In this document: positions 16,523 through 20,966 of the stretch, one piece after another | Layout: each line of letters begins with the position of its first letter | Position numbering within the stretch: position 1 is the first letter of the stretch | Virus record (IMG/VR): IMGVR_UViG_3300030103_002250 | Location: 1-20,966 of that record | Source of the DNA: a virus | Strand: one strand, 5' to 3' | DNA: 20,966 bases | Made by a program: the position numbers and the translations under genes | Notes under the pieces: generated by a model | Database searches by the model: none | Told to the model about the DNA's origin: nothing | The model's input: only the letters and a program-made list of their open reading frames with translations

Positions 16523-16718
16523 CTGCGGCGTTGAGGACATTGCGAAGGGTTTCTCTGATGTGATAATCTGACACGGCCAAGTTGAGGAGTATCTCCCAGC
16601 TCTCGGTGTCTTTGTGGAATACTCCAAAGTTAGCCACGTCTTCGCCTGTATCCGTTCGTGTAAACACAAGGAAGTCGTCGCTCTCGTTGAGCATCCTCTT
16701 GACTTTTCTAAGGGTCAT
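16482..16718 (-). CDS. Hypothetical protein (78 aa)
   Basis: The ATG at 16718 overlaps the stop of the DnaA-like gene (ATGA), which fixes the start better than the longer frame. The product begins MTLRKVKRMLNESDDFLVFT and contains GEDVANFGVFHKDTESWEIL and a helical, charged C-terminus ending QNEPE. I recognise no motif. The alternation of short strands in the first half and helix in the second suggests a small folded soluble protein. It lies between a DnaA-like protein and the methyltransferase, hence probably early or middle expressed. Confidence 0.66.
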   Translation of the reverse strand: MTLRKVKRMLNESDDFLVFTRTDTGEDVANFGVFHKDTESWEILLNLAVSDYHIRETLRNVLNAADAYRDEQAQNEPE

Positions 16719-17044
16719 GCGTTGATAAATTTCTTGTATTCGTTGTTGAACTTGCGGTCGATACTTATTAGCTCGTTGGCACGTCTGACCGAATAGCAAG
16801 AGGTTGTGTGGTTGGTGCGTGCTAAGGCGTGGGCAATTTCTTGGTATCTAAATCCATGATCGCGCAGGTACTTGCTTACGATGTGTCTAGTGTCTGCAAT
16901 GTGCCCTCGGCGGTTGCGGCTTACGAGGTCGCCCCACTCTAAGCCGAGCGCCTTGACACCACGCCGGGCGCGTTGCAAAACGAGGCTCTTATCGTATGAG
17001 AAGTCGTGAAGCATCCCAACGTTCAGGTAAAGGTTGTCAGTCAT
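16715..17044 (-). CDS. Stand-alone DnaA domain IV-like DNA-binding protein (109 aa)
   Basis: From about residue 45 the protein reads GHIADTRHIVSKYLRDHGFR, YQEIAHALARTNHTTSCYSV, RRANELISIDRKFNNEYKKF. This matches the C-terminal DNA-binding domain of DnaA, including the R-x-x-x-x-YLR helix and the xRxxHTT signature (here TNHTTS). There is no AAA+ ATPase domain, so it cannot act as a full DnaA. Isolated copies of this domain are common in Bacteroidota phages and may bind DnaA boxes or regulate early genes. I start at ATG 17044 (MTDNLYLNVGMLHDF), which overlaps the upstream stop by 8 bases; a start nine codons earlier is less likely. Confidence 0.8.
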   Translation of the reverse strand: MTDNLYLNVGMLHDFSYDKSLVLQRARRGVKALGLEWGDLVSRNRRGHIADTRHIVSKYLRDHGFRYQEIAHALARTNHTTSCYSVRRANELISIDRKFNNEYKKFINA

Positions 17045-17186
17045 CTTGCCCATCTCTCCACTGTTTAGCACATATCGCCATGCGTTGGCGCTCGTTAGGG
17101 TATTCTTCTGTCATGGTATTGTCAGCCATGCAGCGTCCGAGATACTCGGTCATCTTCTCGGTCTTTTCAGGTTTGGGAATCGGCAT
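17037..17186 (-). CDS. Small conserved Cys/Trp-motif phage protein (49 aa)
   Basis: The 49-residue product begins MPIPKPEKTEKMTEYLGRCM and continues TEEYPNERQRMAICAKQW. This is the 'PxPxxxExxxxyxxRCMxxxxxxxEYPxxxQRxAICxxxW' pattern that I remember from many Bacteroidota phages, usually at the head of larger head proteins or alone. The two Cys (residues 19 and 39) and Trp 43 are in the expected places. The gene overlaps both neighbours (20 bases upstream, 8 bases downstream). Function unknown. Confidence 0.76.
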   Translation of the reverse strand: MPIPKPEKTEKMTEYLGRCMADNTMTEEYPNERQRMAICAKQWRDGQDD

Positions 17187-17556
17187 TGTGTACGAGTTCT
17201 TTGAGTTGTTGTAGTAGCTTTCTGTTACAGGCGGCGCATCCGCTTGCCTTTTGTCCTCCCAAAAACTTCCGGGCCAGCTCTGTGAGTTCTCCCTTGGTTC
17301 TTAGGTCATTGTTGCGGTTTAGAAATTCACGTATCTGCTCGACGTCCTTGGGTGTTACAATCGCCTCCCACTTGTCCAGAGGGCATGAGGCAACCTTGAG
17401 CTTTGTCTTGGCGGGCATATAGCACCCACACAAAGGAGAGTCTGTAAAGGCTTCCGTCACCAAGGGGCCACAGCTCTTGGTATTCTCTACATAGTGCTCG
17501 CAATTGCGGCACGTGGCGAGGCGTTCAGCCCTTAAATGAGCGTTGACGAATAACAC
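17167..17556 (-). CDS. Cysteine-rich, probable zinc-binding protein (129 aa)
   Basis: The protein contains C16-x2-C19, C29, C43-x-C45, C58 in a CPLDKW context, and a separate C107-x2-C110 pair near the end. The first cluster with the trailing CP-x-x-KW is a small treble-clef-like pattern common in Bacteroidota phage proteins (TCRNCEHY ... GCYMPAKTKLKVASCPLDKW). Middle residues 68-100 are helical and charged. The only available start is GTG at 17556, inside the sigma-like gene, so the first dozen residues are less certain. Function unknown; a DNA- or RNA-binding regulator is possible. I considered a Mu Com-like activator of the Mom-like gene, but nothing beyond zinc ligands supports it. Confidence 0.7.
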   Translation of the reverse strand: MLFVNAHLRAERLATCRNCEHYVENTKSCGPLVTEAFTDSPLCGCYMPAKTKLKVASCPLDKWEAIVTPKDVEQIREFLNRNNDLRTKGELTELARKFLGGQKASGCAACNRKLLQQLKELVHNADSQT

Positions 17557-18010
17557 TGCGCAGTTTTTTCTTAGAGTTAGAGATAGACTTGTACAGGACG
17601 TTCACTTCAATACCCGATTGCTTGCCGAGTTCTACCATGCTCCACCCGTCAAGATATAACTCTAAAACGGTTCTGTCAAACCAAGAGAGGTGGTTAGCCA
17701 TGAGCAGAGCCTCTTCCTTTCTTATGGCCTCTTGTAGGTCGTAGTTAGAAATGTGCTGGTAGTCGGGGGCGTCTGTGATCTTGTACAGCTTGCGGAAGGT
17801 CCCCGTGCTAAGGTTCCACATAGAGGTGTGGACGTAGCCGGGGAGGTTGTCGAGTATGTTCTCATTCTTACGGAGGGCCAGCACGCACGAGAGGTACGTG
17901 TGGTGCAAGAGGTCGTCAGAATCGCGATGGAGGCGCCGCGCCACGTTGGCGAGGTCTCCGTAATTCTTCACAAACCAAGCATCAAAGTCCTTTCGTGCTT
18001 TTGAGCTCAT
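17525..18010 (-). CDS. Sigma-70-like transcription factor (161 aa)
   Basis: From ATG 18010 (MSSKARKDFDAWFVKNYGDL) the protein has a region 2-like helical part, with RLHRDSDDLLHHTYLSCVLA and NLPGYVHTSMWNLS at about residues 27-70. A C-terminal region 4-like helix-turn-helix follows (LSWFDRTVLELYLDGWSMVE, LGKQSGIEVNVLYKSISNSK, about 108-148). Size and layout match small ECF-type sigma factors and their phage relatives. It could redirect host RNA polymerase to middle or late phage promoters, which would explain why I find no ordinary host-like promoter in front of the late genes; this is inference. It overlaps the NinG-like gene by 29 bases and the zinc protein gene by 32. Confidence 0.76.
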   Translation of the reverse strand: MSSKARKDFDAWFVKNYGDLANVARRLHRDSDDLLHHTYLSCVLALRKNENILDNLPGYVHTSMWNLSTGTFRKLYKITDAPDYQHISNYDLQEAIRKEEALLMANHLSWFDRTVLELYLDGWSMVELGKQSGIEVNVLYKSISNSKKKLRSVIRQRSFKG

Positions 18011-18368
18011 CGACTTTTCGCTTGTAGTGGTGATACAGGGCTTCGAGTTCGTCGCGGGAGAACTTGCGCGTCTTCTTTGATTCAATCATAATACTCTCCG
18101 CCGTGCCTTCTCCGTACTGCTGGTCAAGGTGTATAGAAAAGAGGTACTGTTCGCCAGACCTAAAGCCGTTGCAACGCTTACACTGAAATTGGACATTGCC
18201 TTCCGCGTGCCATCGAGTGCTCATACACGCTCGGCTCATGAAGTGCCCAGCGTCTACCTCTGTCCAATGTCTCACGGATCCGCAGGTATAACACTCTCCA
18301 TACCCTCTGTCGTCACTCGCCCGAAGGCGGATGTACTGACTGAACACCGTGTCCACCTTCTTTACCAT
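17982..18368 (-). CDS. ninG: NinG/Rap-like recombination endonuclease (128 aa)
   Basis: Lambda NinG (Rap) is a structure-specific endonuclease acting on recombination branches. From ATG 18368 (MVKKVDTVFSQYIRLRASDD) the protein shows the family pattern: C26-x2-C29 (ECYTCG), then WTEVDAGHFMSRACMSTRWH with D39-x2-H42 and H54, and C63-x2-C66 (FQCKRCNGFRSG). The YLFSIHLDQQYG segment is also standard. The C-terminus is a basic helix (RDELEALYHHYKRKVDELKS). A longer frame runs upstream into the previous gene and lacks homology-like content. The gene sits between a conserved phage gene and the sigma-like gene in the replication/recombination cluster. Confidence 0.86.
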   Translation of the reverse strand: MVKKVDTVFSQYIRLRASDDRGYGECYTCGSVRHWTEVDAGHFMSRACMSTRWHAEGNVQFQCKRCNGFRSGEQYLFSIHLDQQYGEGTAESIMIESKKTRKFSRDELEALYHHYKRKVDELKSTKGL

Positions 18369-18960
18369 CGCGCTCCGGTTGGGAGTTCGGGTACGGGATG
18401 TGCTCCCACCGCCCGTTCTTGACTTGGACCCGCTTGATGTCTGCCCCCTTTTGGAGTTCTTTGGTTTCCTCTTCACGTCTCTTCTTGTAGTTGGCGTACA
18501 GGCTGTCAAGCTGATCGTCCGAGAGGCGTGTGGGTGCGTGCTTTTTTAGCTCGTTCCAGTTGCCTTCCCTTACGGCTGCTCTCTCGCCTTCGTACTGCTG
18601 AAATATATCGACAAGTTCGGGAAGTTTCAAACGCTCGTAACCGGGGCGGTATTCGCCCGTCTTGAGGCGGTGCATGATGATGGCCCACTCTTCGAGCTTC
18701 ATGGCCGGGAAGGTGTCCCGCAGATGGTGTACTGCGTCGAGTACGTCCCTGTCTGCTGTTATACTCTTGTTGTAGTCAAGATACTGAAGGGTCTCTTTCA
18801 GCATAATGATTAGTGCCGCCTCTGTTTTGGCGGGGGCCTCTCGGTACGCTACAAGTACATTCGTTCCTTTACTCCATGCTTTCTCCGGAGTCAGCCGCGA
18901 GGCGGCGGAGATGTTCTGCAAGGAGAGTGCCGTCGCTCGGGCCAGGTCGCTTGGTTTCAT
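18313..18960 (-). CDS. Conserved phage protein of replication region (215 aa), unknown function
   Basis: The protein starts MKPSDLARATALSLQNISAA at ATG 18960 and is mostly helical. A core TLQYLDYNKSITADRDVLDA, then TFPAMKLEEWAIIMHRLKTG and LPELVDIFQQYEGER, matches a recurrent Bacteroidota phage/plasmid family with a conserved 'lxxxexxxixxxikxGxYxxxxxrl...ixxxlxxYxxeR' segment (from memory, a DUF6633-type protein). No catalytic motif is visible. It follows the replication initiator, with a 92-base overlap, and precedes NinG, so a role as replication accessory or helicase-loader-like protein is possible but unproven. The C-terminal 40 residues are charged and low complexity. Confidence 0.72.
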   Translation of the reverse strand: MKPSDLARATALSLQNISAASRLTPEKAWSKGTNVLVAYREAPAKTEAALIIMLKETLQYLDYNKSITADRDVLDAVHHLRDTFPAMKLEEWAIIMHRLKTGEYRPGYERLKLPELVDIFQQYEGERAAVREGNWNELKKHAPTRLSDDQLDSLYANYKKRREEETKELQKGADIKRVQVKNGRWEHIPYPNSQPERDGKEGGHGVQSVHPPSGE

Positions 18961-19561
18961 TCTTTTGGTTTTTGAGGGGGAAGATACCCTGCCAGCCGTT
19001 TGCGATGCTTTGGTGTATCATCTGTACGGCTGTGGCCTCGTCCCCTTGTGAATCGTTCTGCAATTTGTGGAGGGCGGCTTGCTCGCCGCGCTGGGTGTAC
19101 CTCTTTGTCCCTCGTTCTTTGCGCTCTTGCTTCCACACATCCCAAGCCTCTGCAAATTCTTTGGACTCAAAAGGCAACACCACCCCCCTCTCTTTTATTG
19201 TATTGTTCTTTGTTCTTTCTCTTGTATTAGTAGAGGTAACATTTGGGGATGCTGCCTCCCCTTTTTGGGTACTCTGCCTCCCCATTTTGGGGATGCTGCC
19301 TGCACGAGTAGTAACGCATCTTACTCGTCCATTGAAAGTTACCTCTACAAACCCACGCTCTGCGAGCTTGCGGAGGCTTCTTCCAATCGTGTTTCGAGAT
19401 ATGCCGTACTCTGATTGTATGGTGTCGTTCGACTTCATGAACGAGCGACCGTTGCCCGTGAAGCTGTCTATCTCCGCGAGCAAGGCCTTCTCCACCAAGG
19501 TGAGGTCCTTGTCCAACCAAATCTCTGCGGCTATCCATACGCCCTTAAACGTTCTCTCCAT
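18869..19561 (-). CDS. Winged-helix replication initiator-like protein (230 aa) containing the putative origin
   Basis: I start at ATG 19561 (MERTFKGVWIAAEIWLDKDL). Residues about 20-80 form a winged helix (TLVEKALLAEIDSF, SNDTIQSEYGISRNTIGRSL, RKLAERGFVEVTFNGRV), the type found at the N-terminus of phage replication initiators. The linker (87-130) is polar and disordered, and it is encoded by the direct repeats and AT-rich tract described separately. The C-terminal part has FAEAWDVWKQERKERGTKRY and AVQMIHQSIANGWQGIFPLK, the 'W-x-x-W ... I-x-x-SIxxGWxGIF' pattern of phage replication proteins that recruit the helicase. By analogy with lambda O, the winged helix would bind the repeats in its own gene. 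It is followed by the conserved replication-region protein with a 92-base overlap. Confidence 0.8.
   Translation of the reverse strand: MERTFKGVWIAAEIWLDKDLTLVEKALLAEIDSFTGNGRSFMKSNDTIQSEYGISRNTIGRSLRKLAERGFVEVTFNGRVRCVTTRAGSIPKMGRQSTQKGEAASPNVTSTNTRERTKNNTIKERGVVLPFESKEFAEAWDVWKQERKERGTKRYTQRGEQAALHKLQNDSQGDEATAVQMIHQSIANGWQGIFPLKNQKNETKRPGPSDGTLLAEHLRRLAADSGESME
19191..19348. other. Putative replication origin inside the initiator gene
   Basis: The segment combines a 40-base AT-rich tract (19191-19230, 10 G/C of 40 by my count), three direct repeats of 22-bp period (19242-19301), and a 7-bp dyad ACGAGTA/TACTCGT (19304-19310 and 19322-19328). An 11-bp perfect inverted repeat, GTAGAGGTAAC (19230-19240) and GTTACCTCTAC (19338-19348), brackets the repeats. 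It lies in the linker-coding part of the initiator gene with the AT-rich tract on one side, as in ori-lambda inside gene O. Origin function is inferred. Confidence 0.62.
19242..19301. repeat. Three 22-bp-period direct repeats (iteron candidates)
   Basis: The units start at 19242, 19264 and 19286: TTTGGGGATGCTGCCT, TTTGGGTACTCTGCCT and TTTGGGGATGCTGCCT. The outer two are identical over 16 bases and the middle differs at three or four. The spacer is CCCCTT or CCCCAT. The period is exactly 22 bp, two DNA turns, and not a multiple of three. The repeats are therefore read in different frames and give different peptides, so conservation is at the DNA level. Confidence 0.78.
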
Positions 19562-19574
19562 GTGGTGAATATAG

Positions 19575-19602
19575 GGGGAGGCAATACACCTCCCCTTTTT
19601 TT
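19575..19602 (+). terminator. Intrinsic terminator on the plus strand, opposite to the genes
   Basis: On the plus strand, GGGGAGG (19575-19581), a 7-base loop CAATACA and CCTCCCC (19589-19595) form a perfect 7-bp stem, extendable by a G-T and an A-T pair. It is followed by seven T (19596-19602). It lies in the 40-base gap between the initiator and the upstream HTH gene. Read on the minus strand it lacks a T-run after the hairpin (CTATATTCACC), so it acts only against rightward transcription. Confidence 0.7.
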
Positions 19603-19829
19603 CATGTGTCCCTTGTTGGTTCAAGCTCTTTGAGCTCGTGCTCCCGGTACTCTACTTCTCCGTGGAGTTGTAGGTACGTGGTGTTCTTCTCCTCCACGAT
19701 CTGCTTAGCGTGCTTGAGGATACCCCGAGGGTTGTAGCGCAGCCAGTTTCCCACCGTTTGTTCTGTTACCCCGAGCTGGGCGGCGCACTCTTTCTGTGTG
19801 CCGTAGTGCTTCTTTATAAAGTCTCTCAT
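19602..19829 (-). CDS. Cro/CI-type helix-turn-helix protein (75 aa)
   Basis: The gene starts at ATG 19829, overlapping the upstream stop as ATGA. The product begins MRDFIKKHYGTQKECAAQLG, and TQKECAAQLGVTEQTVGNWL (residues about 10-30) is a textbook helix-turn-helix with the AAxLGVxxxTVxxW pattern. A YNPRGILKHAKQIVEEKN helix and an acidic C-terminus follow. It is likely a small transcription regulator of the early region, or an accessory origin-binding protein. It directly precedes the initiator gene with a 40-base gap that carries the antisense terminator. Confidence 0.8.
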   Translation of the reverse strand: MRDFIKKHYGTQKECAAQLGVTEQTVGNWLRYNPRGILKHAKQIVEEKNTTYLQLHGEVEYREHELKELEPTRDT

Positions 19830-20086
19830 GCCTTTGTGTATTTGATAAGTCCCCAAAGCAAAGAGACCTCCGTTTGTGGTTTCATGTAGCGCGTGTACTT
19901 GCCCTGCTTCAATACCGGGCGGTTGGTGTACTGACGGATAAGGCCGAGCTCTGAGCGTTTTAACTGTATGGCCGCTGGTGTGCGGCCCAAAGCAAGGGCT
20001 ATATCTTGGTCGTTGGCTCCTTTGACTCGAAGTTCTTTGAGGGTTTTAATCTGTCCCTCTGTCCATTGTTTGCGTGCGTTTCTCAT
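19826..20086 (-). CDS. Small Myb/SANT-like helix-turn-helix protein (86 aa)
   Basis: The product reads MRNARKQWTEGQIKTLKELR, VKGANDQDIALALGRTPAAI, QLKRSELGL over its first 50 residues. The W-T-x-x-x-I-x-x-L ... G-x-x-x-x-x-IA-x-x-LGRTPxAIxxKRxxLGL pattern is a SANT/GcrA-type DNA-binding fold common in small phage regulators. The C-terminal 35 residues are basic and then hydrophobic (PQTEVSLLWGLIKYTKA), family unknown. The start (20086) overlaps the previous stop as ATGA and the stop overlaps the next start the same way. Confidence 0.76.
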   Translation of the reverse strand: MRNARKQWTEGQIKTLKELRVKGANDQDIALALGRTPAAIQLKRSELGLIRQYTNRPVLKQGKYTRYMKPQTEVSLLWGLIKYTKA

Positions 20087-20289
20087 TGTGCGTATTTGTA
20101 AAGGTTGTCTAACGTTTCATTCTGTTTTGTGGGAGAGTCTATCTGGGCCCAAGTGTCAGGAGTTTCACCTAATTGTGTTTTCCAGTTCTTGTCTTCCCAC
20201 CTGCCTACTTCGTAAACAAAAAAACTTCCCATTCTCCAAGCGCATAGGTACCATCCCTCTTCGTTTGGTTGTCCGGTTTCCCACATCAT
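20083..20289 (-). CDS. Small Trp-rich hypothetical protein (68 aa)
   Basis: I use the ATG at 20289 that overlaps the upstream stop (ATGA), giving MMWETGQPNEEGWYLCAWRM at the N-terminus. The rest (VYEVGRWEDKNWKTQLGE, TPDTWAQID) is rich in Trp and Tyr. The 'P-x-x-x-G-W-Y-L ... W-x-x-x-W ... W-A-x-I' arrangement resembles short DUF551-like phage proteins, which have no established function. A longer frame upstream would run through the preceding gene and has low-complexity Arg/Gly content, so I reject it. Confidence 0.68.
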   Translation of the reverse strand: MMWETGQPNEEGWYLCAWRMGSFFVYEVGRWEDKNWKTQLGETPDTWAQIDSPTKQNETLDNLYKYAQ

Positions 20290-20858
20290 ACCTCGACCTC
20301 TTCCTTGATGACTGAGCGAGCCTTCAAAGCGAGCCGGGCGAGCTGCATCACAATCGAGTCGTAGTCCTTTTGAAAGGGGTCTCCTGCCGCTTGCATAGCG
20401 CAACCTACGGCCCAGCTTGCCACGATGCCTTTTACGTCGCTGTTGCTCCCTCCCTTGGCGCTCCCTCCACCTTGCTGAAAGCCGGGCTTGTCAAGTTTGA
20501 GGCGCGGTCCCCACTTGGTCTGCTGATGGTCCTTTACCACTACCTCGTCTCCGACCTTCCACTTGTCGGGTGTCATCGCGTTAACTTCTCCCACCATGCC
20601 GTTGTCGAGGATGACATCAAACTTGTGAAAGGTCTTTCCGTTGTGTTCAAACGTGCCCTGTGGGGTCACGCTCTGGATATTTACTTGGTCCATTGTGTTA
20701 TGGGTTTTAATTGGTTTTATCTTCTTGACGCGGCACCCGGGAGGAACCTTGTCCATTGCTTTTTGTTTGGCCTCTGCTTCGTCGCGTGCGGTGACTGTGA
20801 ACTTGTCCCAGTCGTCGTGGTCGAAGCCAAGGATGTATATAACCTCGTACGTATTCAT
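20286..20858 (-). CDS. Putative ssDNA-binding-like protein with N-terminal extension (190 aa)
   Basis: The frame starts at ATG 20858 (ATGA overlap with the upstream gene). Residues 1-50 form a small alpha/beta unit (MNTYEVIYILGFDHDDWDKF, TVTARDEAEAKQKAMDKVPP, RVKKIKPI). After a short linker the ATG at 20693 opens the second unit (MDQVNIQSVTPQGTFEHNGK, FHKFDVILDNGMVGEVNAM, WKVGDEVVVKD), then a Gly/Ser linker and a helical tail (VASWAVGCAMQAAGDPFQKD). The second unit resembles small OB-fold-like proteins placed near phage replication genes in Bacteroidota phages. The bases before 20693 are A-rich (AAACCAATTAAAACCC), as for an independent start, so a 135-residue short form may also be made. Binding of ssDNA is inference. 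Confidence 0.62.
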   Translation of the reverse strand: MNTYEVIYILGFDHDDWDKFTVTARDEAEAKQKAMDKVPPGCRVKKIKPIKTHNTMDQVNIQSVTPQGTFEHNGKTFHKFDVILDNGMVGEVNAMTPDKWKVGDEVVVKDHQQTKWGPRLKLDKPGFQQGGGSAKGGSNSDVKGIVASWAVGCAMQAAGDPFQKDYDSIVMQLARLALKARSVIKEEVEV

Positions 20859-20966
20859 CCTGTGATGCTGTTCTTGAAGTCATCCCAAAGGCCGTCGAAC
20901 TTCTTGTGGAAGTCTTTGAGCTCTTCTTGTATCTCACGTTGGAAGTCTTCTACAACTTGGTCACAG
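20855..20966 (-). CDS. Partial coiled-coil protein, C-terminus only
   Basis: The last 36 codons of a gene that enters from the right edge are visible, with a TGA that overlaps the next start as ATGA. The visible residues (DQVVEDFQREIQEELKDFHK, KFDGLWDDFKNSITG) are amphipathic and highly charged, and suggest a helical or coiled-coil end. The start and the remaining domains lie outside the window, so no function can be given. Confidence 0.6.
   Translation of the reverse strand, partial: CDQVVEDFQREIQEELKDFHKKFDGLWDDFKNSITG

Follow-up and report, generated by a model that had tools for sequence, protein, structure and literature searches.

A probable lambda-type replication origin within the initiator gene of an uncultivated phage

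An O-like replication initiator gene is found at positions 18869-19561, on the minus strand, of an IMG/VR virus record that is 20,966 bases long. This whole stretch of DNA is called the window, and all coordinates refer to it. The gene was assigned by Pfam and PHROG matches, and encodes 230 amino acids from its ATG. An alternative TTG start at 19624 would give a 251-residue protein; most relatives start at the ATG of the 230-residue form. The protein matches PF13730 (HTH_36; 9.1e-8, residues 40-93 of the 251-residue form), the 'replication initiation O-like' family PHROG_678 (1.2e-17), and also a family named replication initiation protein. Lambda O also matches PHROG_678 (1.7e-35), but a direct profile comparison between the initiator and lambda O gave no match. 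This pattern suggests that the two proteins are likely to be homologous, and that the relationship is distant.

The N-terminal part of the protein is a predicted winged helix-turn-helix domain (19346-19507, minus strand). Such a domain had been proposed in the preliminary description, and is upheld by the HTH_36 match, the O-like match to PHROG_678, and modelling with AlphaFold2 and Foldseek. In the AlphaFold2 model, this domain comprises helices and a two-strand wing, with pLDDT blocks mostly of 70-84. Residues 92-124 form a disordered linker, and the C-terminal domain is helical. Compared with the PDB by using Foldseek, the winged helix resembles ArsR/MarR-type and other winged helix-turn-helix regulators, none with E < 0.001, and a sequence search of solved structures with the initiator returned nothing relevant. 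The predicted recognition helix, ISRNTIGRSLRKL, is encoded at 19364-19402 (minus strand), and its sequence varies with that of the DNA repeats described below.

The genes surrounding the initiator, in the order HTH regulator, O-like initiator, helical protein and NinG, parallel the cII-O-P-ninG order of lambda. This order is widely kept among 46 relatives, although several of the loci are too short to include every gene. Upstream, where lambda has cII, a gene encodes a small HTH regulator (19602-19856; Pfam and PHROG matches; 43 of 46 relatives). The downstream gene overlaps the initiator gene, occupies the position of lambda P, and encodes an all-helical protein of 215 amino acids (18313-18960; 42 of 46). 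The NinG/Rap-like gene is located at 17982-18416 (PF05766, 3.6e-16; 39 of 46). All three genes are on the minus strand. The 215-residue protein matches only PHROG_35728, a family of unknown function, and fold searches found no match in the PDB and only uncharacterised phage proteins in a viral library. Lambda P recruits the host helicase DnaB (Mallory et al. 1990, cited in PMC5043065), and by analogy the 215-residue protein is perhaps a helicase loader. Because this protein has neither a family of known function nor a solved fold, a loading step is something that we infer.

Other genes in the region, also on the minus strand, have weaker matches. A 118-amino acid protein (16715-17071) resembles DnaA domain IV (Bac_DnaA_C, 5.6e-6, below the Pfam cut-off), and is found in the same place in 26 of the 46 relatives. 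The window contains no DnaA boxes conforming to the consensus TTWTNCACA. The product of the gene at 17525-18085 weakly matches a family of phage RNA polymerase sigma factors (phrog_1740, 7.4e-7), and the gene is syntenic in 31 of the 46.

The part of the initiator gene that encodes the linker contains a tandem array of three 22-nucleotide copies. These start at 19242, 19264 and 19286, which confirms the exact 22-bp period initially reported. When periods of 15-30 are scored, this array is the top periodic tract in the whole window, and its score was reached by none of 400 synonymous codon shuffles that preserve the protein. Since 22 is not divisible by three, each copy is translated into a different peptide, as had been correctly observed. 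The disordered linker of the AlphaFold2 model covers most of the repeats, so the proposed placement of the repeats in the linker, as in lambda O, also stands.

Each repeat unit is a 15-bp dyad, composed of a 5-bp arm, an A-rich centre and a second 5-bp arm, and is followed by a 7-bp spacer. To define the units, the dyad register was fixed on the GGCAG sequence of the spacer, and a free search for the register was dropped because the symmetry of tandem palindromes biases it. On the minus strand, iteron 1 (19279-19293) is the perfect dyad TCCCC-AAAAT-GGGGA, and iteron 2 (19257-19271; TACCC-AAAAA-GGGGA) has one arm mismatch. Iteron 3 (19235-19249; TCCCC-AAATG-TTACC) keeps its left arm, and its right arm is degenerate throughout the subfamily to which the window belongs. 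On the same strand, the spacers are GGCAGCA before iteron 1 (19294-19300), GGCAGAG between iterons 1 and 2 (19272-19278), and GGCAGCA between iterons 2 and 3 (19250-19256). An internal 7-bp dyad, described previously, was not found as such; the perfect dyad TCCCCA-AAA-TGGGGA (19279-19293) is the repeat unit itself. The GGCAG spacer core is common to most iteron classes and subfamilies despite their differing arms, and might be a second initiator contact, for example with the wing, or a bending signal.

The preliminary description also included an 11-bp perfect inverted repeat that brackets the array. This repeat is present (19230-19240 and 19338-19348), and is also detected as 17-nucleotide arms that are 88% complementary, but it is not conserved among relatives. 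The sequence GTTACC in the window corresponds to GATACC in relatives, and the upstream arm is lost in relatives L008-L010 and L011-L014. The bracketing repeat was therefore rejected as a structural element. Its upstream half drifts as ordinary coding sequence does, and its downstream half is part of an element, ACCTCTACTAATACAA, that is present in most relatives. The bracketing arrangement is probably due to chance.

An AT-rich tract (19190-19239, minus strand), recognised by its GC content and codon identity, adjoins the sites directly on their 3' side on the coding strand, which is also the side found in lambda. The tract is A-rich on the coding strand, and the reported GC content of 25% over 40 bases was recovered at 19190-19229. 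The array ends at an element of the form ACCTCTACTAATACAA, which follows the last iteron and is contained within the tract. Its core, ACTAATACA (19223-19231, minus strand), lies at the start of the tract, was delineated by codon identity and comparison of relatives, and can be recognised in 39 of 44 genes, either exactly or with one or two bases changed. Threonine codons in the tract are fixed by position as ACC, ACT or ACA, almost invariantly. AT-richness alone would not require such fixed codons, so the tract, judging from codon choice, is conserved as a specific sequence and not only as AT-rich DNA. It is a probable unwinding element.

Relatives of the initiator were gathered in two sets, one of 18 close relatives and a wider one of 80 loci with identities as low as 41%. 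In total, more than a hundred relatives indicate that the DNA of this region is preserved in its own right. No relatives were found in the genome collection. The persistence of the repeats among relatives had been put forward as a check, and the outcome is clear: a tandem array occupies this linker in every complete relative examined (41-95% identity), and its period is 22, or 21 in two cases. Codon identity, defined as use of the same codon given the same amino acid in pairs of sequences, was calculated for 44 non-redundant genes. It is 0.88 in the iterons and 0.89 in the AT-rich tract, compared with 0.44 in the N-terminal domain, 0.57 in the C-terminal domain and approximately 0.36 expected from codon usage. 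Codon identity also climbs at the extreme C-terminus, where the initiator gene overlaps its downstream neighbour. Within the repeats and the AT-rich tract, the choice of synonymous codons hardly varies, and so this DNA is under selection of its own inside the coding sequence. The expectation that the repeats are conserved as DNA, beyond the peptide, is thus borne out. GC skew was also considered as an origin marker, and was uninformative: all likely genes run in one direction, and the window is an incomplete, one-strand fragment of 21 kb.

The arms of the dyads are complementary in the fixed register. Averaged over the first two units per gene, 4.03 of 5 positions pair, compared with at most 2.4 at every shifted register. 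For all units except the last in each array, the value is 3.91, compared with 1.98 when arms are permuted between units. Arm sequences differ by subfamily, and both arms change: TCCCC/GGGGA (the class of the window), TCGCC/GRCGA, TGGTC/GACCA and TTATC/GATAA are found, and further classes have GTAAA or GAAAG, each with its complement. These data support the dyad within each repeat, and not the dyad bracketing the array, as the likely functional unit.

Differences between arms follow differences between predicted recognition helices. In a partial Mantel test of the 39 genes with a 22-bp period, with the rest of the N-terminal domain and the C-terminal domain held constant, the partial r is 0.64 (permutation p 0.001), a value from which shared ancestry is incompletely removed. 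The corresponding partial correlations of arm difference with the rest of the N-terminal domain and with the C-terminal domain are 0.003 and 0.12. Two unrelated C-terminal modules are each found with all three main classes of N-terminal domain, although the second module occurs only once with class TCGCC. Across both modules, and without exception, the iteron class goes with the class of the N-terminal domain. Such exchange of C-terminal modules argues against pure descent as the reason why arms and helices track each other.

Very probably, the array and its adjoining tract, which lie in the linker-coding part of the initiator gene, serve the phage as an origin of replication of the lambda ori/O type. 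A lambda-like origin within this gene was the central proposal of the preliminary description, and is supported by the arrays of relatives, by conservation at the level of DNA, and by the O-like, winged-helix character of the gene product. Points against it are the failed profile match to lambda O, the degenerate right arm of iteron 3, and a putative loader that resembles no recognised family or fold. In the proposed mechanism, an initiator dimer would bind each dyad via its N-terminal winged helix. The phased dimers would wrap or bend the DNA, and would open the adjoining AT-rich tract. The C-terminal domain would then recruit a helicase loader, which may be the 215-residue protein of the overlapping gene downstream. 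In lambda, O dimers bind inverted-repeat iterons, and the bent O complex opens an AT-rich tract under negative supercoiling, with transcription also required in vivo (PMC5043065, PMC7466680). O proteins, which are dimers, also bind the single-stranded DNA of the AT-rich region (PMC7466680).

The layout within the lambda O gene (J02459, iterons at 39034-39118) is similar to that of the window. Iterons that are A-centred inverted repeats, ATCCCTCAAAACGAGGGA, occur in the linker of O, and an A-rich tract, ACTATTACAAAAGAAAA, comes after them, with both order and side as in the window. However, lambda has four irregularly spaced sites, whereas the window has three at exactly 22 bp that share the GGCAG spacer. 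Because of this irregular spacing, the lambda array alone is not significant by our periodicity score. Also, the C-terminal domain and the downstream gene of the window are not recognisably O and P. Replication modules specific to the phage type, such as rep-lambda and rep-P22, are found among lambdoid phages (PMC3349717).

Several cultivated-phage names attach to more distant versions of this arrangement. Pseudomonas phages Cruim01, Skulduggery and HU1 and Lysinibacillus phage vB_LspM-01 share with the window an N-terminal domain of the FKGVWIP-EIWL type, and have linker arrays of 22-23 bp with AATACA just after them. Their iteron sequences and C-terminal domains differ from those of the window. 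The gene after the initiator may differ as well, as it is annotated as a DnaC-like loader in Skulduggery and a replicative helicase in HU1. Considered singly, the arrays of vB_LspM-01 and Cruim01 are significant, and those of Skulduggery (matched by 3 of 200 codon shuffles) and HU1 (1 of 200) are marginal. In two other initiator subfamilies, found by starting from vB_LspM-01 and Cruim01, 57 of 73 genes, which are not all independent, have an array that is matched by at most 2 of 100 codon shuffles, and 50 of these 57 have a period of 22 or 23. The matching gene of Bacteroides phage C3_41T2LP consists of the HTH part only, without an array.

Of 59 non-redundant distant relatives, 46 have the sequence AATACA at the array or beyond it, compared with 24.7 expected and a maximum of 33 in 200 codon shuffles. 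Asn-Thr pairs at the array are encoded by AATACA 98 times and by the equally AT-rich AATACT 11 times; elsewhere, the counts are 18 and 17. It is possible, but on balance doubtful, that O-like unwinding tracts carry a specific single-strand signal, ACTAATACAA (AATACA being its core on the coding strand), that is read by the initiator or the loader much as DnaA-trios are read by DnaA. This signal would be shared from the Pseudomonas and Lysinibacillus phages to the family of the window, with ACTATTACAAAAG of lambda as a relative. Alternately, a general strand bias for A may account for the preference.

Other functions for the repeats can be envisioned. Instead of an origin, they might be an operator, bound by either the initiator or the adjacent HTH protein to repress or block the transcription of the operon that encodes it. 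Most winged-helix proteins with this fold regulate transcription, the dyads are operator-like, and phage and plasmid initiators can autoregulate too. However, the array lies more than 250 bp inside the coding sequence and is always joined to an AT-rich tract constrained as DNA, and the protein family is annotated as functioning in replication initiation. No match resembling a sigma-70 promoter was found in 18800-20966, although this consensus may not be that of the host. An operator is thus unlikely. An even smaller probability is assigned to an origin of the plasmid type, in which Rep monomers would bind non-palindromic direct repeats. Phased direct repeats of 22 bp beside an AT-rich tract also fit the plan of iteron plasmids (PMC5043065), and origins of the RK2, P1, F and R6K type have helically phased repeats that adjoin such a tract, as in the window. 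However, the direct repeats of these plasmids bind monomers, and this arrangement is what distinguishes them from the inverted repeats and O dimers of lambda (PMC5043065). The units in the window are palindromic, with both arms changing together, and the protein matches O-like families.

The weak fold matches of the winged helix include TubR, which raises the idea of a centromere-like partition site bound by a TubR-like protein. Yet a scan of neighbouring genes revealed neither a partition ATPase nor a partition GTPase, and the protein itself contains a second domain, at the C-terminus, and matches O-like profiles, so that this function is highly improbable. The same low standing applies to chance, or to a low-complexity peptide linker that merely looks repetitive. 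Linkers do often vary and repeat, but this explanation is refuted by the out-of-frame period, the codon shuffles and the codon identity of the iterons, and arrays recur in distant families.

The presence of an origin within an initiator gene is already known, as are phage-type-specific replication modules, and the lambda plan has been studied mainly in enterobacterial phages. The new aspects are the breadth of the pattern, the covariation measured within one gene, and, possibly, a sequence-specific unwinding signal. No survey of phage origins reporting such a pattern was found in the open-access literature. The lambda plan thus recurs in uncultivated phages and in several distant families, and in each case one gene must spell both a protein and a set of predicted binding sites for it. 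A single gene holds both site and recognition helix, and the two covary among many natural variants; the set could therefore serve to read a recognition code for winged-helix initiators. It could also help to find the origins of phages that are known from sequence alone.

Array length is subject to the reading frame. In lambdoid phages with six iterons, copy number within the gene changes in frame-preserving steps, two iterons corresponding to 13 amino acids (PMC7466680). In contrast, with a 22-bp unit, the family of the window can preserve the frame only by gaining or losing units in threes (66 bp), which is its smallest in-frame step. The array at L085:3001-3744 has seven iterons compared with four in close relatives, so that three units (66 bp) have been gained without loss of the frame. 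At L018:917-1562, the array is 44 bp (two units) shorter and the gene is frameshifted, which represents either collapse of tandem repeats in assembly or a broken, dead gene.

Between the HTH regulator gene and the start of the initiator, a G+C-rich hairpin, GGGGAGGTGTATTGCCTCCCC (coding strand), is found at 19573-19597. It is kept in several relatives, whatever their iteron class, and is a candidate for a terminator or for translational control.
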